The notes: a model not told the origin generated them from the sequence alone. 59,746 bases of DNA from Alphaproteobacteria bacterium (GCA_018650465.1 JABIFY010000143.1:1-59746); one strand, 5' to 3'. Counted from the stretch's first letter, positions 1,574-44,065 are shown. Program-made: numbers and translations.

Positions 1574-4428
1574 TGGCAACGACGGGGGGAAGTGTCGGCG
1601 AAAAAGGTCGGGTCTATCTGGTTGACGGCTCGGGTTATATTTTTCGCGCGTACTATGCATTGCCGCCGCTGACGCGCAAGCATGATGGCACGCCCGTGGG
1701 CGCCGTGTCCGGCTTTTGTAATATGCTGAACAAACTGGTGGACGACATTACGGCGGAAGAAGACAGTGGCCATATGGCGGTGATTTTTGATACCGCGCGC
1801 AAAACCTTCCGTAGTGATTTTTATCCTGAATACAAAGCCCACCGCCCGCCCGCGCCAGAAGATTTGATCCCGCAATTCCCGCTGTTTCGCGAGGCCACAA
1901 AGGCCTTCAATGTAGCCACCTGGGAAATGGACGGGTTCGAGGCCGATGACCTGATCGCCACCTATGCCCGCATGGCGCGCGAGGAAGGCTATGAAGTTGT
2001 CATCGTTTCATCCGACAAGGACCTGATGCAAATGGTGAGTGACGGCATCACCATGCTTGATCCCATGAAACAGCGCCGTATCGGACCCGACGAAGTTTTA
2101 GAAAAATTTGGTGTCGGTCCGGACCGGGTGATCGATGTCCAGGCCCTGGCCGGGGACAGTGCTGACAATGTACCGGGCGTACCAGGCATCGGTCTTAAAA
2201 CGGCCGCTCTGTTAATAAATGAATATGGTGATCTTGATGCCGTACTGGACCGAGCCGGCGAAATCAAACAGAACAAGCGCCGGGAAAATCTGATCGAATT
2301 TGCCGACCAGGCCCGAATCAGCCGTGACCTAGTGACCCTGAAGCAGGATGTGCCCGTGGAAGATGGCATCGACGCCATGGTTTTGCGGGCTCCCGACCCG
2401 GTAGAACTGTTCACTTTTCTCGCTTTCAACGAATTCGACAAACTGGCGCAGCGCCTGAAGTCACGTTATGGCGATCTGGACGTTGAGCTTCCGGAAATCG
2501 CCGCGCCGCAATCCAGTGATGCGGCAGTGCCCCAGGCAGAAAAAGCCCCGGCCCCGGCGGACAGCAACTATGTCGCCGTGCAAACTGTGGATGATCTGAA
2601 AGACTGGGTCGCGCGGGCTTACGAAACGGGCTATGTGGCGGTCGATACGGAAACCACCGGGCTGGATGCCATGCAGGTTGATTTGGTGGGCGTCTCCCTG
2701 TCGGTCAAGGCGGGCGAGGCCTGTTATATTCCCCTGGCCCATACGGTGGGCGGTGCCGCAGGCGTGGCGCAAGGCAGCTTTGATTTGGGCGAGCCTGCTG
2801 AGGACATGCCGGACGCGCCAGACCAAATCAACATCGATGAGGCGTTGGTGATACTAAAGCCGATGCTGGAAGATCCGGCTGTGCTGAAGATCGGCCAGAA
2901 TATCAAATATGATGCCATGATACTGTCGCGCCATGGCGTGGCGATACGGCCCATGGATGATACAATGCTGTTGTCCTTCGTGCTGGATGCAGGCAGTCAT
3001 GGTCACGGCATGGACGCCCTGTCGAAGCTGCACCTGGATATCGTACCTGTGCCTTTCAAGGAAGTTGTCGGCACAGGCAAAAAACAGATCACCTTTGACC
3101 AGGTCCCACTGGACGAGGCCGTGCGTTATGCCGCTGAAGATGCTGACATTACCTTACGTCTGCACCAGGTGCTGAAACCGCGCCTGGCACAGGATAAAAT
3201 GGTGACGGTTTACGAAACCATGGAACGGCCCCTGTCACCTGTGCTGCTGCAAATGGAAATGGCCGGGGTCAAGGTTGATGCCAAGGTCTTGTCGGACCTG
3301 TCGACGGATTTTGCAAGGCGCATGGTTGACCTGGAAGCTGAAATTCATCAACTGGCAGGCCGCGAATTCAACATTGCGTCGCCCAAACAACTAGGCGAAA
3401 TCTTGTTCGATGAAATGGGTTTGCCCGGCGGTAAAAAATCATCCAAGACCGGTGCCTGGAGTACGGATGCCGATGTGCTGGATGGCCTCGCCAGTGATGG
3501 GTACGAGCTGCCGGTGAAGATTTTGGCCTGGCGTCATTATGCCAAGTTAAAAAGCACCTATACGGATGCCCTGCAAGAAAGCATCAATCCGGATACAGGC
3601 CGGGTGCATACATCCTATGCCATGGCCGGGGCGGCAACGGGGCGTCTGGCGTCTACCGATCCCAACCTGCAAAATATCCCTGTCCGCACCGAGGAAGGCC
3701 GCAAAATCCGCGAAGCCTTTGTGGCCAAAGAAGGTCATAAATTGCTGGCGGCGGATTATTCACAAATTGAATTACGCCTGTTGGCTCATGTGGCCGATAT
3801 GGACAGCCTGCGCCAGGCCTTCAAGGATGGCGTTGATATTCACGCTTTGACGGCCAGCCAGGTCTTTGGCATTCCGGTGGACGATATCGACGGTGAAACC
3901 CGTCGTCGGGCCAAGGCCATAAACTTTGGTATTGTCTATGGCATCAGCCCCTTTGGTCTGGCCCGGCAACTGGGCATCGGCCAGCGCGACGCCAAGGCTT
4001 ATATCGAAACTTACTTCGAACAATATCCAGGCATCCGCGCTTATATGGAAGACACCAAGGCCTTCTGTCGTGAACATGGCTATGTGGAAACTATTTTTGG
4101 CCGGCGCTGTCACCTGGAAGGCATCAATGACAAAAACGGGGCCAAGCGCGCTTTCAACGAACGCGCCGCCATCAACGCACCGCTTCAGGGGGCCGCCGCC
4201 GACGTCATCAAACGCGCCATGATCCGCGTGCCCGGTGCACTGGACAAAGCCAACCTGAAGGCCACCATGATGCTACAAGTGCATGATGAATTGTTGTTCG
4301 AAGTGCCAGAAGCCGAAGTCGAGCAAACGACCAAAGTTGTTAAACAAGTCATGGAGTCAGCCGCCCATTTAAGCGTGCCGTTGATCGTCGATTGCGGAGT
4401 TGGCGATAACTGGGGCGAGGCGCACTAG
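1573..4428 (+). CDS. polA: DNA polymerase I
   Basis: A 951-residue family A DNA polymerase for Okazaki-fragment processing and gap filling in repair. The N-terminal about 290 residues form the 5'-3' flap exonuclease (YLVDGSGYIFRAYYAL, DGFEADDLIAT, SDKDLMQ, GDSADNVPGVPGIG). The central 3'-5' proofreading domain looks active, with VDTETTGLD, GQNIKYDAM and YAAEDADITLR supplying the acidic residues of Exo I-III. The polymerase domain has motif A DYSQIELR, motif B RRRAKAINFGIVYG and motif C QVHDELLFE. Length and domain order match the family. It is preceded with a one-base overlap by the zinc-finger gene, so both are likely one transcript. Confidence 0.98.
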   Translation: MATTGGSVGEKGRVYLVDGSGYIFRAYYALPPLTRKHDGTPVGAVSGFCNMLNKLVDDITAEEDSGHMAVIFDTARKTFRSDFYPEYKAHRPPAPEDLIPQFPLFREATKAFNVATWEMDGFEADDLIATYARMAREEGYEVVIVSSDKDLMQMVSDGITMLDPMKQRRIGPDEVLEKFGVGPDRVIDVQALAGDSADNVPGVPGIGLKTAALLINEYGDLDAVLDRAGEIKQNKRRENLIEFADQARISRDLVTLKQDVPVEDGIDAMVLRAPDPVELFTFLAFNEFDKLAQRLKSRYGDLDVELPEIAAPQSSDAAVPQAEKAPAPADSNYVAVQTVDDLKDWVARAYETGYVAVDTETTGLDAMQVDLVGVSLSVKAGEACYIPLAHTVGGAAGVAQGSFDLGEPAEDMPDAPDQINIDEALVILKPMLEDPAVLKIGQNIKYDAMILSRHGVAIRPMDDTMLLSFVLDAGSHGHGMDALSKLHLDIVPVPFKEVVGTGKKQITFDQVPLDEAVRYAAEDADITLRLHQVLKPRLAQDKMVTVYETMERPLSPVLLQMEMAGVKVDAKVLSDLSTDFARRMVDLEAEIHQLAGREFNIASPKQLGEILFDEMGLPGGKKSSKTGAWSTDADVLDGLASDGYELPVKILAWRHYAKLKSTYTDALQESINPDTGRVHTSYAMAGAATGRLASTDPNLQNIPVRTEEGRKIREAFVAKEGHKLLAADYSQIELRLLAHVADMDSLRQAFKDGVDIHALTASQVFGIPVDDIDGETRRRAKAINFGIVYGISPFGLARQLGIGQRDAKAYIETYFEQYPGIRAYMEDTKAFCREHGYVETIFGRRCHLEGINDKNGAKRAFNERAAINAPLQGAAADVIKRAMIRVPGALDKANLKATMMLQVHDELLFEVPEAEVEQTTKVVKQVMESAAHLSVPLIVDCGVGDNWGEAH

Positions 4429-12570: not shown

Positions 12571-13233
12571 TCAACGTTCGATCTTGATTACAATGCGACG
12601 GTTTTCTTCCCGGTTTTCCTTAATGCCTTCGCCCTCGTCATTCAGGTTGGGGGACAGGGGCTTCGTGTCACCATAGCCCACGGCCCGCAGGCGTTCCGGA
12701 TCGACGCCCCGGCTGATCAGCCAGCGGACAACGGCTGCTGCCCGCGCCGCTGACAATTCCCAGTTGGAGGGAAATTGTTTGGTTTTGATCGGCACATCAT
12801 CTGTGTGGCCTTCGACCTCCACCGAATAATTGGTAATACCCATCAAGCTGACCATCTGTGCCACATGATCAAGCGACGCTTCTGCCTCAGGCACGACAAC
12901 GGCTGAGCCGCCCTTGAACATGGAATTGCTTTTGAAGTTAAAGGTCATGCCTTTATCGCTGGAATCCATCGAAGCACTGTCGTTTTCTTCGAAGTTGTCG
13001 ACGGTTTCCTGCATTTCCGCGGCGATCACCAGCAAGGCTTCGGCCTTGGCAGCATTCTTGCCTTCCAGTTCTTCCAGGATGCCGCCAGCGACTTCATCAA
13101 ATTTTTCCGGACTGGGCTCCGAGATGGAAAACATCATGACAAAAAAGGCCATCAAAATGGTGATGGCATCGGCATAGGTGACCAGCCAGTCTTCTGAAAC
13201 CGCGTCGCTGCCTATTTCTGATGGATCACTCAC
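12571..13233 (-). CDS. motB: MotB-like stator protein with OmpA peptidoglycan-binding domain
   Basis: A 220-residue protein of the MotB/PomB type. A single N-terminal membrane helix contains the ion-channel aspartate, Asp22, in WLVTYADAITILMAFF. A plug/linker region follows, then an OmpA-like domain (VEVEGHTDDVPI, NWELSAARAAAVVRWL, RRIVIKIER) that anchors to peptidoglycan. The start codon is GTG. It is 37 bp downstream of the motA-like gene and forms the stator with it. No other flagellar genes lie nearby, which is usual for stator genes in many genomes; the assignment to flagellar rotation rather than another motor is inferred. Confidence 0.88.
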   Translation of the reverse strand: MSDPSEIGSDAVSEDWLVTYADAITILMAFFVMMFSISEPSPEKFDEVAGGILEELEGKNAAKAEALLVIAAEMQETVDNFEENDSASMDSSDKGMTFNFKSNSMFKGGSAVVVPEAEASLDHVAQMVSLMGITNYSVEVEGHTDDVPIKTKQFPSNWELSAARAAAVVRWLISRGVDPERLRAVGYGDTKPLSPNLNDEGEGIKENREENRRIVIKIER

Positions 13234-13270
13234 GTCGTCACTCTTTCATGCCGATCATATTTCATGCTGA

Positions 13271-14083
13271 TCAGGCAGCTTTCTTACGCCGACCGCCTTT
13301 TTGGTCCATGGTGTAATGGATTGACGGATCAAGATAGCTGTTCATTTTGTCCTGAATGTAACGCGGGCTTTTGTGATCGGCCAACATGGAAAAGCCTTCT
13401 GTCACCAGGAAATTCCGGAACCTGAGGATGCCCTCTTTCTGAATGACCTTGGAAGACGCCGGCAGAAAAATCATCCGTGCCAGCAACACGCCATACAATG
13501 TCGTTAACATGGCGACGGCCAGACCGGCACCCAGTCCACCTGGATCACTGCCCAGAGATTGCAACATAACGATCAACCCCACCAGGGTTCCGATCATGCC
13601 AAAGGCAGGGGCGGCTGCGGCCATATTTTTGAGGATATCTGCCTGCACCATGGCACGTTGGAAAGCACCGGTTGAGGCAGCGGTCAACATGGACCGGACT
13701 TCTTCCCCCGAATAGCCGGAGATCACCAGTTCGATCCCGTAATTCAGAAAATGGTCCTGCTTTTTGGCACCCTTGATTTCTTTTTCCAGGGCCAGCAATC
13801 CCTGCTTCTTGACGAGATATCCCCAGCGAATGATTTTGCCGGTTTCAAGGGTCAGCATCTTGCGGTCGACTTTGCCTTTGATGAACAGCATGCCGACGTC
13901 GCGCAAGGCCAACAACACATAGCGGGCCTGATAGCCGATAAAGGTTGCCGACAAGGTACCGCCCAGAACCATAACGATACTGGGGCCGCTCAGAAAACTG
14001 GAATAGTTGTCGGTGGCTGTGACAATGGCCCCGATAAACAGGCCCATACCCGCCAAAAATCCTAATAAAGTGGCAATTGACAT
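13271..14083 (-). CDS. motA: MotA/PomA-like stator protein
   Basis: A 270-residue inner-membrane protein with four hydrophobic helices: about residues 5-22 and 33-50 near the N terminus, then MAAAAPAFGMIGTLVGLIVM and VAMLTTLYGVLLARMIFLP. The large cytoplasmic loop between helices 2 and 3 and the short form of the protein are more like PomA/MotP than enteric MotA. The last residues are basic (DQKGGRRKKAA). It forms an ion channel with the downstream MotB-like protein. Whether H+ or Na+ is used cannot be told reliably here. Confidence 0.88.
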   Translation of the reverse strand: MSIATLLGFLAGMGLFIGAIVTATDNYSSFLSGPSIVMVLGGTLSATFIGYQARYVLLALRDVGMLFIKGKVDRKMLTLETGKIIRWGYLVKKQGLLALEKEIKGAKKQDHFLNYGIELVISGYSGEEVRSMLTAASTGAFQRAMVQADILKNMAAAAPAFGMIGTLVGLIVMLQSLGSDPGGLGAGLAVAMLTTLYGVLLARMIFLPASSKVIQKEGILRFRNFLVTEGFSMLADHKSPRYIQDKMNSYLDPSIHYTMDQKGGRRKKAA

Positions 14084-38724: not shown

Positions 38725-39288
38725 ATGAAAATCAATGGCAACGCCGTTCGACCTGGCAATGTAATCGAACACAAAGACGGCCTGTGGGTCGCCGTGAAAA
38801 TCCAACACACCCAGCCTGGCAAGGGTGGGGCCTATTTGCAGGTCGAACTGAAAAACCTGCGCAATGGCTCCAAACTTAACGAGCGCTTCCGGGCCTCGGA
38901 AACAGTTGAAAAAGTTCGCCTGGAACAAGCGGAATATCAATTCCTGTTTTCTGATGGTGATATGCTGACTTTTATGAACAATAAAAGTTACGAGCAAATC
39001 GAACTGAACGCCGAGCTAGTGGGCGAACAGCGCGCCTTTCTTCAGGACGGCATGGAAGTTACCATTGAATCTTATGATGACGCACCATTGGGCGTGAAAC
39101 TGCCGGAAACAGTGACTCTGGAAATCACCGAAACAGAGCCAACCGTTAAAGGCCAGACAGCGACATCTTCGTTCAAACCAGCCATGCTGGAAAACGGTGT
39201 TCGTGTAATGGTACCGCAGTTTGTTTCCACGGGTGAGCGTATCGTTGTGAACACAGAAGACGCCAGTTATTCCAAGCGCGCCGACTAA
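38725..39288 (+). CDS. efp: Elongation factor P
   Basis: A 187-residue translation factor that rescues ribosomes stalled at polyproline. Three OB-like domains. The tip loop is TQPGKGGAY with Lys33 at the position that is beta-lysylated by EpmA/EpmB in many bacteria; no modification genes are in the window. The C terminus has the usual [17 protein letters not shown]. The proline-rich TolA and OmpA-like proteins encoded nearby are likely EF-P-dependent products (inference). Confidence 0.97.
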
Positions 39289-39340: not shown

Positions 39341-40150
39341 ATGGCCCATAAATCCGCCCTTATCAATGTCATGGATGCCGCTGCACGCAAGGCATCCCGC
39401 CGCCTGTTGCGTGATTTTGGCGAAGTTGAACAGCTTCAGGTGTCGGAAAAGGGGCCGTCTGACTTCGTAACTTCTGCTGATCTGAAGGCCGAGGAAACCA
39501 TCCGCGAAGAGCTGGAAAAGGCGCGCCCGGAATACAGTTTTCTGCTGGAAGAAGGCGGCAAAGTCGATGGTAAGGATACGTCCAACCGCTGGATTATTGA
39601 TCCGCTGGACGGCACCATGAATTTTTTGCACGGTATTCCACATTTTTGCATTTCCATCGCCCTTGAACGCGATAGCGAAATTTTTGCCGGCATTATTTAC
39701 GATCCGGCGCGCGATGAAATGTTTAGTGCAGAAAAAGGCCAGGGAGCCTGGCTCAATGACAAGCGCCTGCGCGTCTCCGGTCGCAGCCAGGCCAAGGACG
39801 CCTTTATCGCCACAGGTATCCCCAACCGTGGTCGCGGCAGCACCAAAATTAAGGCTTTGTTTTCGAAAGAGCTGGAAATCATGATGCCGCTGGTTGCCGG
39901 GATCCGTCGTCAGGGATCTGCCGCACTTGATCTGGCCTATGTCGCTGCTGGCAGGTATGAAGCCTATTGGGAACGTGGCCTGAGCGCCTGGGACATCGCA
40001 GCCGGCCTGATTATCTTGCGCGAAGCTGGTGGTACCGCCAGTGAAATCAACCTTGGTGAGCGCATGCTGGAGACCGGCAGCATCCTGGCCAGCAACGGCC
40101 GAATGCACGATGCTGTATCAGACATGTTGCGGAAGGCATCACGCGCTTAA
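39341..40150 (+). CDS. suhB: Inositol monophosphatase family protein
   Basis: A 269-residue Mg2+-dependent phosphatase. Metal-binding motifs are FLLEEGG (Glu), WIIDPLDGTMNFLHGIP (Asp pair) and WERGLSAWDIAAG (Asp). It is similar to SuhB, which dephosphorylates inositol phosphates and in enterics also assists rRNA transcription. It is 52 bp after efp and probably in the same transcript. Confidence 0.94.
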   Translation: MAHKSALINVMDAAARKASRRLLRDFGEVEQLQVSEKGPSDFVTSADLKAEETIREELEKARPEYSFLLEEGGKVDGKDTSNRWIIDPLDGTMNFLHGIPHFCISIALERDSEIFAGIIYDPARDEMFSAEKGQGAWLNDKRLRVSGRSQAKDAFIATGIPNRGRGSTKIKALFSKELEIMMPLVAGIRRQGSAALDLAYVAAGRYEAYWERGLSAWDIAAGLIILREAGGTASEINLGERMLETGSILASNGRMHDAVSDMLRKASRA

Positions 40151-40377: not shown

Positions 40378-41490
40378 ATGTCAGAGGCCATGAATAAGTT
40401 TTTAAGTCAAAAACCAGTTCCCGGATTAATCGTGGGTCGACAGCGGTTTGCGGCTTTTGCCGGCAGCGCCTTGGCAATGGTTGTCGTAACTGGCCTTTCC
40501 GGTCTGGTCCAGGCGCAATCAACTGTCTTTATTGGTGGCACAGGAAAATCAAGTGTCGAAGTTAATCTCGACATTCTTGAGCCCTCGTCAGGTAACACTT
40601 CATCCTATGGTCGTGTCCTGAAGATGCCTGGCACAAAAAGCCTGAACGCCGAAGCGCCTGTTACATTGCGCATGCCTGGCAGCACAACTCGTTCAGGAAC
40701 TGCTGCCAATGTCCCTCGACTGAACCTGTTGCGACCTAAAACCCAAAGCCTGCGGGTTGTCGAAAGAAAATCTGCTCTACCAGCAGCGCGTGCGGTGACG
40801 CAGCGTCAACCAACAATCGCCCGGGTTGCCGTGCCAGCGCCAGCAGCGGTGCCAATGGTTAAACCGGCAACGCCAAAAGTGATTTCACGACCGGCAGCTA
40901 AAACAGCGCCGATGCCGACGAAGAAAGCCGTATCCAAGCCGGTGCAAATGGCCAAAAAGACACCTGCCGCTGCGCCACCTCCACCGCCGCCAGCTCCCAA
41001 GGTCATGACCCCCATAGAGGTCAAGCCAAGGGTCGTGAAACCTGCGCCTGCACCGGTTGTACCCAAACTTGTTGTACCCAAGCCGGTCGTTCAGGCGCCT
41101 GTTGTGCCAGCTGCACCAAAGGTAGCGCCAAAAGAGCAAAAAATTGCTTCCTTGCCGCGCAACGTCAATGTTTCAACACCGGGCCTGGCCATGCGTGTGG
41201 GCTTCAGCGGCAACAGCACACGTATTTCAGCGGATGAAAAAGTCCGCCTGAATGCTTTTGCGGCCAACATGGCCGATGGCGAAGACCGGTTACAACTTAA
41301 ATCTTTTGCTGGTGGTTCCGGTGAAACCCCCAGCGCATCTCGCCGACGCAGTCTGTCCCGTGCACTTGCCGTGCGATCCTATTTGATCGAAAAGGGCTTT
41401 CGGTCCACGCGCATCGACGTCCGCGCCCTCGGCATGGCGGCTGATCAGGGGCCATCAGACCGGGTCGATGTTATTATTCTGGTTCGTTAA
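40378..41490 (+). CDS. Proline-rich exported protein with OmpA-like C-terminal domain
   Basis: A 370-residue envelope protein, first of the stator-like trio. An N-terminal hydrophobic stretch (FAAFAGSALAMVVVTGLSG, ending VQAQ) is a signal peptide or anchor. Residues about 120-270 are a flexible Pro/Ala/Lys/Val-rich linker including a PPPPPPAP run. The last about 100 residues resemble an OmpA peptidoglycan-binding fold (RLQLKSFAGGSG, SRRRSLSRALAVRSYLIEKG, DRVDVIILV), but the aspartate that normally contacts diaminopimelate is not at its usual place. Start may be ATG 40378 or ATG 40390, which has the nearer AGAGG site. Confidence 0.8.
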   Translation: MSEAMNKFLSQKPVPGLIVGRQRFAAFAGSALAMVVVTGLSGLVQAQSTVFIGGTGKSSVEVNLDILEPSSGNTSSYGRVLKMPGTKSLNAEAPVTLRMPGSTTRSGTAANVPRLNLLRPKTQSLRVVERKSALPAARAVTQRQPTIARVAVPAPAAVPMVKPATPKVISRPAAKTAPMPTKKAVSKPVQMAKKTPAAAPPPPPPAPKVMTPIEVKPRVVKPAPAPVVPKLVVPKPVVQAPVVPAAPKVAPKEQKIASLPRNVNVSTPGLAMRVGFSGNSTRISADEKVRLNAFAANMADGEDRLQLKSFAGGSGETPSASRRRSLSRALAVRSYLIEKGFRSTRIDVRALGMAADQGPSDRVDVIILVR

Positions 41491-41609
41491 ATTCTGGTTC
41501 GTCAAATTCTGATTCGCTGGGCCAAATCGAAAAATGGGTCACGTCATAAAACAGGCCCGGTTCCGAAGAAACGCCATTTTGTTCGGGATCATTTGACAGG
41601 AGTGGGTGA

Positions 41610-42749
41610 ATGACCCGGCCACAACGTTTTCTCACCCGGATGGCCATTTTTCTGGTTGTCGTAATTATCATCGGCGGATTTCTGTCCGAACCTGTGTATC
41701 GCGCCTTCCTTGCAAATCCGGCGTTGAACGGCCTGATTGCCGGAGTCCTGGTGCTGGGCATCATTTATGTTTTCCGCCAGGTCCTGTTGCTGCGCCCGGA
41801 AGTCGACTGGATCGAAATGACCAGCCGCGATGGGCCGCGTCTCAGTATCCCCGTCACCCCGACACTGCTGGCTCCCATGGCGACGATGCTGGGCGACAGC
41901 GCCGGACATCGCTCCATTTCTGCTTTGGGCATGCGCTCTCTGCTGGATGGTATTGCCTCACGACTGGATGAATCGCGGGAAATTTCACGCTACCTGATCG
42001 GTTTGCTGATCTTTCTGGGCCTTCTGGGCACCTTCTGGGGCCTTTTGGGCACCATCGGTGCCGTCGGCAACACCATCAAAAATCTGGGCGTTGAGGGCGG
42101 CGATTTTGCGGTCTTGTTTGCAACTCTGAAGTCCGGTCTGGAAGCCCCCCTGACGGGCATGAGCACGGCCTTTTCATCTTCCTTGTTTGGCCTTGCCGGA
42201 TCCCTGGTTCTGGGTTTTCTTGATCTCCAGGCAGGCCAGGCGCAGAACCGATTTTTCAATGATCTGGAAGAATGGCTGTCGACCAAAGCAAGTCTCGGTT
42301 CCGGTGCCGCCATCGGCGACGGCGACCAGTCGGTTCCAGCCTATGTCAGCGCCTTGCTTGAACAAACAGCGGAAAGTCTGACCTCCCTGCAGCGGTCCCT
42401 GATACGAGGCGAAGAAGACCGCAGCCAAACCACCGAAGCCATTCAGGACCTGGGCGAGAAGTTGGCGGTGCTGGGCGATCAGATGAAAGCCGGTCAGGAT
42501 CTGATGATCCGTCTGGGTGAAGCGCAACTGGAAATGAAACCGGTATTGGAGCGTCTGGCCTCGGCCACAGAACGCGAAAACGCCATGACCCTGGATGATG
42601 TCAGTCGCGGCCATTTGCGCAACATCGATGTTTATACAGCCCGTCTGCTGAAGGATGCAGCACCCGGTCGCGATATGATGGTTGAAGAACTACGCAGCGA
42701 GATAAAGTTGCTGGCCCGCACTATCGCTGGACTGGCACGGGAAGGTTAG
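41610..42749 (+). CDS. MotA/TolQ/ExbB-like proton-channel protein with cytoplasmic tail
   Basis: A 379-residue membrane protein. Helices at about residues 8-29 and 37-57 are followed by a pair that resembles the MotA/TolQ channel: YLIGLLIFLGLLGTFWGLLG and the segment GLEAPLTGMSTAFSSSLFG. The C-terminal about 150 residues form a long hydrophilic helical tail (LEQTAESLTSLQRSLIRGEE, LEMKPVLERLASATEREN). MotA and TolQ lack such a tail, while ZorA of Zorya defence has one. AGGAG lies 6 nt before the ATG. The downstream MotB-like gene starts 8 bp after it, so they are one functional unit. Confidence 0.85.
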   Translation: MTRPQRFLTRMAIFLVVVIIIGGFLSEPVYRAFLANPALNGLIAGVLVLGIIYVFRQVLLLRPEVDWIEMTSRDGPRLSIPVTPTLLAPMATMLGDSAGHRSISALGMRSLLDGIASRLDESREISRYLIGLLIFLGLLGTFWGLLGTIGAVGNTIKNLGVEGGDFAVLFATLKSGLEAPLTGMSTAFSSSLFGLAGSLVLGFLDLQAGQAQNRFFNDLEEWLSTKASLGSGAAIGDGDQSVPAYVSALLEQTAESLTSLQRSLIRGEEDRSQTTEAIQDLGEKLAVLGDQMKAGQDLMIRLGEAQLEMKPVLERLASATERENAMTLDDVSRGHLRNIDVYTARLLKDAAPGRDMMVEELRSEIKLLARTIAGLAREG

Positions 42750-42757
42750 GCCCGGTT

Positions 42758-44065
42758 ATGGCCGCCCGACTTCGCGCCCATCGTTCCGACAACATCTGGC
42801 CTGGATTTGTCGACGCCTTGGCAACCTTGTTGTTGGTGATCATGTTCCTGTTGGTGATGTTTGTTTTGGCCCACGTCTTCCTGTCTCAGGCTTTGTCGGG
42901 CCGGGATGAGGCTCTGGAACGCCTGAACAGTCAGATTAGCGAACTGGCCAATCTGCTGGCCCTGGAACAACAGACAAGTGTTGAACTACGCAGCAATGTC
43001 ACCCAACTGTCGGCCAGCCTACAAGAAAGTACCAAGGGGCGCGACGCTCTGAATCTGGAAATTGAGATCCTGAAAGCCAGCCTGGCCGAAACACAATCCT
43101 TATTGTCTAACTCAGAATCACAAGCGGCTGACAATAATGAAAGCCGGGACGATATGCTGAAGCGTATATCGCGACTGGAATCAGCGCTTGCCTTTTCCAG
43201 TAACGAAACAGCCGCCTTGCGCGCCCGAACCCGGGAATTACAGGACCAGCTTTCGGCCTTGCGCGCCGCGACAGATGAAAAGCTTGAGATCGCACAAGAT
43301 CAGTTGGGTAGTACTCAAAACCAGTTACGCGACGCCACGACGAATCTGACCTCAGCACAAACGAAGCTGAAAGAAACACAGGAAAAGTCCGACAAGACGG
43401 ATGAACAGCTGCGCGCCGAACGCAAGGTTTCCGAAGCTGCCCTGGCCCAGGTCGCATTGTTGAACCAGCAAATCGCCGCCATGCGCCAACAACTGGCCCG
43501 CATCAGCAAAGCCCTGGAAGCATCAGAGGCTGAGGACAAGGAACAAAAGGCCGTTATCCTTGATCTTGGCAAGCGCCTGAATGTCGCCCTCGCCAAAAAA
43601 GTTGAAGAACTCTCTCGTTTCCGGTCCGAGTTTTTTGGACGGCTGCGGGAAGCGCTAGGCAATCGTAAAGATGTGCGTGTCGTCGGCGACCGCTTTGTTT
43701 TCCAGTCAGAAGTCCTGTTCTCTTCAGGCTCCGCAGACCTGGGCGGTAAAGGACAGGATCAGCTTGCCAAACTGGCGAAAACGATCCTCGAAATTGCCGA
43801 CAAGATACCGACCAAACTGCCGTGGATATTACGGGTTGATGGTCACACGGACCGTAATCCCATCGCCACGGCAAGGTTCCCCTCGAACTGGGCCTTGTCG
43901 ACCCACCGGGCCTTGTCCGTCGTTAATCAACTGATTAAGCAGGGCGTGCCCGCCAATCGTCTCGCCGCCGCAGGCTTTGGAGAGTTCCAGCCCCTGGATA
44001 CCAACAACGACGAAATCGCCTATCGCCGCAACCGCCGCATCGAGATCAAACTGACACAGCGCTAG
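42758..44065 (+). CDS. MotB-like protein with long coiled coil and OmpA domain
   Basis: A 435-residue partner of the preceding protein. The single membrane helix contains Asp19 in WPGFVDALATLLLVIMF, matching the ion-carrying Asp of MotB. It is followed by roughly 220 residues of coiled coil (about 50-275), far longer than the linker of MotB or TolR. The C-terminal OmpA domain is complete: LRVDGHTDRNPIATARFP, NWALSTHRALSVVNQLI, YRRNRRIEIKL, keeping the Asp and Arg that bind peptidoglycan. The coiled coil would let it reach peptidoglycan at a fixed distance. Confidence 0.88.
   Translation: MAARLRAHRSDNIWPGFVDALATLLLVIMFLLVMFVLAHVFLSQALSGRDEALERLNSQISELANLLALEQQTSVELRSNVTQLSASLQESTKGRDALNLEIEILKASLAETQSLLSNSESQAADNNESRDDMLKRISRLESALAFSSNETAALRARTRELQDQLSALRAATDEKLEIAQDQLGSTQNQLRDATTNLTSAQTKLKETQEKSDKTDEQLRAERKVSEAALAQVALLNQQIAAMRQQLARISKALEASEAEDKEQKAVILDLGKRLNVALAKKVEELSRFRSEFFGRLREALGNRKDVRVVGDRFVFQSEVLFSSGSADLGGKGQDQLAKLAKTILEIADKIPTKLPWILRVDGHTDRNPIATARFPSNWALSTHRALSVVNQLIKQGVPANRLAAAGFGEFQPLDTNNDEIAYRRNRRIEIKLTQR

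Follow-up and report, generated by a model that had tools for sequence, protein, structure and literature searches.

The window analysed here is a stretch of 59,746 nucleotides from an alphaproteobacterium (GCA_018650465.1, JABIFY010000143.1:1-59746), and it carries three adjacent, intact open reading frames on the plus strand, which we call P1, P2 and P3. P1 (40378..41490) encodes an exported, proline-rich protein of 370 residues whose C-terminal, OmpA-like domain is without the aspartate used for binding diaminopimelate (DAP); P2 (41610..42749) encodes a 379-residue channel subunit of the MotA/TolQ/ExbB superfamily; and P3 (42758..44065) encodes a MotB-like axle subunit of 435 residues. A gap of 119 nucleotides separates P1 from P2, and one of 8 nucleotides separates P2 from P3. 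The original prediction, made from this DNA without database searches, had described the three as an uncharacterised stator-like envelope complex with an extra OmpA-like protein, and its account of the genes themselves was accurate in every main point. The ion-driven 5:2 motors that are understood amount to a handful (MotAB, TolQR, ExbBD, AglRQS, GldLM and ZorAB), and reviews expect more. We find that P2 and P3 form a genuine pair, which appears to be unstudied, and that P1 is an accessory to it or a neighbour of it.

P2 and P3 as channel and axle

Hydrophobic helices at residues 7-25, 42-60 and 129-147, together with a region for transmembrane helix 4 (TM4), give P2 four predicted membrane helices, and its cytoplasmic tail occupies approximately residues 206-379 (∼170 residues). 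In an AlphaFold2 model the membrane part consists of four long helices and is followed by two tail helices, the tail being helical over residues 244-378. The best PDB matches of this model are ExbB, TolQ and ZorA, then MotA (Foldseek E values down to 5e-4), with Z scores of ∼11 over residues 27-238 to chains of these proteins and of ∼9 to unrelated helical bundles (Foldseek, VIA). The structural alignments start around residue 27 for TolQ, ExbB and ZorA and at residue 3 for MotA (Z 9.7), and the model therefore suggests that P2 carries an extra N-terminal helix, as MotA does. A structural model was needed because a PDB sequence search with the P2 profile returned only coiled-coil matches to the tail and no channel.

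At the level of sequence, the Pfam family MotA_ExbB gave no match in a single-sequence search with P2, matches 33 of 43 P2 relatives weakly (E<=0.01, best 1.7e-5), and has its cut-off passed by the homologue from Sinorhizobium meliloti. P2 has no score on any TolQ, ExbB or MotA family of NCBIfam. In TM3 it carries G-L-L-G-T-F-W-G-L, which comes close to the TolQ motif (GLxGTxWG), and the pattern G-x-x-G-T-x-x-G is common to P2, the TolQ of the window and the MotA-like protein of the window. When profiles were compared with hhalign, P2 reached TolQ with an E value of 1.7e-5, ZorA (a profile of three sequences) with 1.8e-5 and MotA, the weakest of the three, with 1.6e-3. Because TolQ and ZorA are about equally near to P2 and yet their profiles do not reach each other, P2 is placed by its sequence between the known groups of the superfamily. 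The tail is short, nearly absent, in gammaproteobacterial relatives and is short in those from Desulfobacterota too. Two P2-like segments in genomes of 1.3-1.4 Mb (G079:C7:11729-12592 and G172:C1:844171-845052) are embedded in much larger open frames (1502 and 1349 residues), possibly a fused or a different giant channel protein. In a 0.9 Mb genome (G057:C2:75924-76745, locus L117) the P2 match crosses a TGA and a TAA; this gene may have lost the end of its tail or may be decaying.

P3 has the membrane aspartate expected of a superfamily axle. This residue, Asp-19 (codon at 42812..42814), is a candidate ion carrier in the helix WPGFVD19ALATLLLV and is invariant in all 32 relatives compared. 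It is followed by a coiled coil of ∼245 residues (∼45-290) with a heptad-like period of 3.52, a signal that none of 500 shuffles equalled, and by an OmpA domain (Pfam OmpA, 1e-14) in which the DAP-binding aspartate and arginine of peptidoglycan recognition are each kept in 32/32 relatives. Pfam and NCBIfam scans found neither an ExbD/TolR domain nor MotB_plug in P3. With 459.6 bits against a cut-off of 305, the protein is a member of NCBIfam NF006543 (PRK09039), whose sole name is 'peptidoglycan -binding protein'; we found no function, partner or paper for this family, and its description, as consulted here, makes no link to P2 or P1. Homologues are annotated as 'MotA/TolQ/ExbB proton channel family protein' and 'peptidoglycan -binding protein'. 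The family of P3 is uncharacterised, but the pair is not new to databases.

The length of P3 shows no correlation with that of P1 (rho -0.06, 35 loci) and a weak one with that of P2 (rho 0.34, 73 loci, kinship uncorrected). Open frames of 914 residues (G060:C3:22539-23432) and 886 residues (G241:C38:25661-26557) indicate that the coil can be several-fold the length of that in the window. At one locus (L143:9174-12701, genome G112) a 1175-residue open frame just 3' of P3 also matches the P3 profile (5.9e-17); this frame could be spurious, or it could encode another coiled-coil protein.

Two better-known stator systems lie elsewhere in the window, as had been predicted. Its Tol system is real and complete, the TolQ and TolR proteins scoring above their family cut-offs, whereas P2 and P3 have no match to TolQ (TIGR02796) or to TolR/ExbD. 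P2 resembles TolQ in its TM3 motif and in the overall A-subunit fold, but it has the extra N-terminal helix and the tail, and P3 has an OmpA domain in place of the TolR domain. The other system (12574-14083) is a PomA/MotP-like pair of flagellar type with both MotA and MotB_plug matches. The same genome has a further MotA (G000:C27:32778-33536; 37% identical), so that it probably encodes two stators of flagellar type in addition to Tol and P2-P3. P2-P3 itself could be read as another stator of flagellar type, or as one for some other form of motility, given the MotB-like plan of P3 with its peptidoglycan-binding domain, the four predicted channel helices of P2 and the alignment of its model to MotA from residue 3. 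We consider this highly improbable, since P2 has no MotA family match and stands furthest from MotA in the profile comparison, P3 combines a long coil with the lack of MotB_plug, there is no torque-interface evidence, the genome has its own two MotA genes elsewhere, and no motility genes lie at the P1-P2-P3 locus. With no TolQ, ExbB or MotA family score for P2 and a model whose best matches are ExbB, TolQ, ZorA and MotA, the claim that this is a stator-type pair apart from Tol, Exb and flagellar systems stands.

Distribution of the pair

We scored presence and absence in 289 alphaproteobacterial genomes, leaving shared descent uncorrected; the profile threshold was E<=1e-15 for P2 and ∼1e-30 for P3. 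Both genes were found in 193 genomes, P2 only in 5, P3 only in 3 and neither in 88 (Fisher p 8e-64, kinship uncorrected). With 193 genomes holding both, 88 holding neither and only 8 holding one alone, the pairing of P2 and P3 is genuine, and its conservation in about two-thirds of the sampled Alphaproteobacteria means that the original observation is not due to chance. The pair nearly always occurs as one copy per genome, often at the same place behind efp and suhB. In the window these conserved neighbours, which lie outside the complex, are the gene for elongation factor P (efp, 38725..39288, plus strand) and a suhB-type inositol monophosphatase gene (39341..40150, plus strand), preceded by thiE; downstream of P3 come a convergent arylesterase-like gene and an ATP-binding cassette (ABC) exporter. 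A promoter and terminator scan of the locus gave signals near background.

Genomes as small as 0.7-0.9 Mb keep both P2 and P3, in some of them at separate loci. P2 stands alone at L123 (beside prfA), L126, L112, L121, L127, L128 and L130, all from small or divergent genomes, several of which have P3 elsewhere. Across 348 Pseudomonadota, P2 was found in 97, of which 89 are Alphaproteobacteria. Rare cases of the pair occur beyond this class, in Desulfobacterota and Gammaproteobacteria, and their gene neighbours there include no common partner besides the pair itself. A phage search returned only OmpA-domain matches. Cultured carriers include Sinorhizobium, Thalassospira and Gluconacetobacter; S. 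meliloti has the pair without P1, Gluconacetobacter diazotrophicus and Thalassospira all three genes. The efp-suhB-P1-P2-P3 arrangement on a contig titled Candidatus Marinimicrobia (L056) is typical of Rhodospirillales and points to wrong binning of that contig.

This distribution bears on the kinship of the pair with ZorAB. Were the pair an anti-phage motor of the Zorya type, or a ZorAB acting by itself in defence, P3 would sense wall damage and the P2 tail would signal to a DNA-attacking effector. Each of the 43 P2 relatives scores on ZorA models of PADLOC (best 2.2e-16), ZorB3 is the best PADLOC match of P3 (4.4e-23), and P2 has the motifs GTFxG and L-x-GM-x-TAF-x-S/T-SL-x-GL of TM3 and TM4 in common with ZorA, as well as a helical cytoplasmic tail, to be set beside an axle with a peptidoglycan-binding OmpA domain. 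Zorya requires ZorC, ZorD and ZorE or equivalent effectors, however, and none of these three was found among ten flanking proteins tested, so the resemblance to ZorA in the absence of nearby Zorya partners is as had been predicted. P2 reaches at best 15.9 bits on the NCBIfam ZorA models, whose cut-off is 500. True ZorA1 is sporadic, occurring in 3 of 299 genomes, whereas P2 occurs in 198 of the 289 Alphaproteobacteria, reduced genomes included. The P3 coil is also much longer than that of ZorAB, and the P2 tail of ∼170 residues compares with one of ∼460 in type I ZorA (PMC11890865). Membership of Zorya is rejected on score cut-off, neighbours and distribution, and we regard a defence motor of any such kind as quite unlikely.

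P1 as a separable neighbour

P1 has a single hydrophobic segment, N-terminal at residues 26-44 and ending ..VQAQS, which by eye looks like a cleavable signal peptide, and proline makes up 22% of residues 111-265. Its C-terminal domain (41173..41487, plus strand) matches Pfam OmpA (6.9e-7), and the AlphaFold2 model of the domain, with a predicted local distance difference test score (pLDDT) of 88.1 and a predicted template modelling score (pTM) of 0.84, gives a best Z score of 17.2 to an OmpA-C domain (9uu2) and of 15-16 to Pal and OmpA over ∼100 aligned residues. The domain differs from OmpA and Pal in a shortened loop before the last strand, and the protein has neither lipobox nor barrel. GHTD is replaced by SFAG (consensus AYAG), and the missing peptidoglycan aspartate, already recognised in the original prediction, is absent from all 30 relatives of P1 as against its presence in 32/32 for P3; the partner arginine is kept in 30/30. 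The likely ligand of the domain is a protein or some other feature of the wall.

A proline-rich protein encoded beside a channel gene recalls TonB, and P2 is as near to TolQ as to ZorA, so that the locus could in principle encode an energiser of the Ton/Tol kind in which P1 transduces force, and with it motion, to an outer-membrane partner as TonB or TolA does. The end domain of P1, however, has an OmpA fold rather than a TonB/TolA C-terminal domain, its sole hydrophobic segment resembles a signal peptide that would be cleaved, P3 has no ExbD/TolR domain, and the pair often occurs without P1. We therefore think this reading unlikely.

When strong P1 and P2 matches could both be located, P1 was directly upstream of P2 on the same strand in 119 of 119 genomes (median gap 72 nucleotides), and P1 is commoner in genomes with the pair (122/193) than in those without (26/88; odds ratio 4.1, kinship uncorrected). 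The genes also occur apart. Of the 26 genomes that keep P1 without the pair, we inspected 20 loci, and 15 have P1 directly behind efp-suhB (L152-L160, L163-L166, L170 and L171, in genomes lacking P2 and P3); at L152-L155 an ABC exporter comes directly after P1, and the pair is thus simply absent there. At least six loci (L116, L122, L124, L140, L150 and L151) have the pair after suhB with no room for P1. On a suhB tree, which is overall too poorly supported for a test on independent pairs, the combinations of P1 and pair are scattered, and within a single family P1 and the pair come apart on a branch that has support (L170 and L171).

Because P1 occurs without the pair and the pair without P1, the pair is the unit, and P1 is either an accessory to it or an envelope protein in its own right that belongs to the efp-suhB neighbourhood; presence and absence across genomes rule out P1 as an obligate third subunit. 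P1 stays in genomes without P2 and P3, and there it must either act for itself or have a different partner. The original prediction had asked for a test of whether the three genes co-occur and stay adjacent in Alphaproteobacteria: P2 and P3 co-occur, in some small genomes at separate loci, and P1 is separable, an adjacent component but not a fixed one. P1 may even have no physical link with P2-P3, the efp-suhB locus having P1 as its true envelope protein and the three genes being neighbours only. The 26 genomes, the six loci and the separations on the suhB tree would fit this, while the unbroken adjacency to P2 and the higher frequency of P1 alongside the pair argue for a connection, and we regard such independence as a real possibility, though less likely than not.

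A proposed envelope motor

In this superfamily, an A subunit together with a B subunit that has a membrane aspartate and a wall-binding domain forms an ion-driven 5:2 motor (PMC12505986, PMC9389320, PMC11890865). We propose, with a probability of roughly 0.6, that P2-P3 is a proton- (or sodium-) driven 5:2 envelope motor that is anchored to peptidoglycan and serves envelope growth or integrity. Five P2 would surround two P3 in the inner membrane, and ions would pass at Asp-19 of P3 between the conserved Thr-141 and Thr-186 of P2, turning P2 round P3, whose OmpA domain would fix the axle to peptidoglycan via the long periplasmic coiled coil. Were the axle fixed in this way, motion would reach the bundled cytoplasmic tails of P2, the P3 coil, or both. 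The pair would then act as a housekeeping envelope machine, with P1 as an optional periplasmic partner, and would neither energise a transporter nor serve as a stator of flagella or a motor of phage defence. That the locus of the pair is single, fixed and of housekeeping character speaks for a basic role in the envelope. The fold, the key residues, the pairing, the distribution and the gene order are results of this analysis; the stoichiometry, ion flow, rotation, envelope role and any contact made by P1 are inferred.

The sole pointer to function, towards growth, comes from the neighbourhood in S. meliloti (L172), where the order is thiE, an exported Sel1-repeat protein, inositol monophosphatase, P2, P3 and an ABC exporter. 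Besides the S. meliloti gene (L172:6337-7482), similar genes for exported Sel1-repeat proteins are found just upstream in L122 (2540-3646), L136 (2270-3313) and L141 (∼2918-3784), and at several of these loci their place is between thiE and efp/suhB. The S. meliloti gene, matched by description, is probably rgsF, a polar-growth gene that is essential by knock-out (PMC5929573). None of the known Rgs proteins other than RgsF corresponds to P2 or P3.

Several points weigh against the proposed motor. A straight P3 coil would measure ∼36 nm (245 residues x 0.15 nm), which exceeds the usual periplasm, and the coil may therefore be bent or broken; the length of P3 also varies widely among relatives (open frames of 303-914 residues). 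The P2 model is a monomer of middling confidence (pLDDT 73.9, pTM 0.53). A role in envelope growth is suggested by gene neighbourhood, with the Sel1 protein equated with RgsF by description and not by sequence, and the RgsF pulldown lists consulted name neither P2 nor P3. No experiment on the pair came to light in the papers searched.

A broader and rather doubtful extension of the proposed motor is that P2-P3 is a housekeeping sister of the Zorya motor, a 5:2, wall-anchored machine for envelope growth that would be ancestral to Alphaproteobacteria and work with periplasmic partners, RgsF-type Sel1 proteins in some lineages and P1 in others, a relative having later been recruited to phage defence as ZorAB. 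The kinship of P2 with ZorA makes the origin of the phage-defence motor testable, and the function of the pair would bear on how Alphaproteobacteria build and hold their envelope. The S. meliloti record in which we examined the locus (CP090106.1, L172) is titled plasmid pSymB of strain Ak57 and spans 3.7 Mb with chromosomal housekeeping genes (purE, rpmE); the plasmid label looks wrong.

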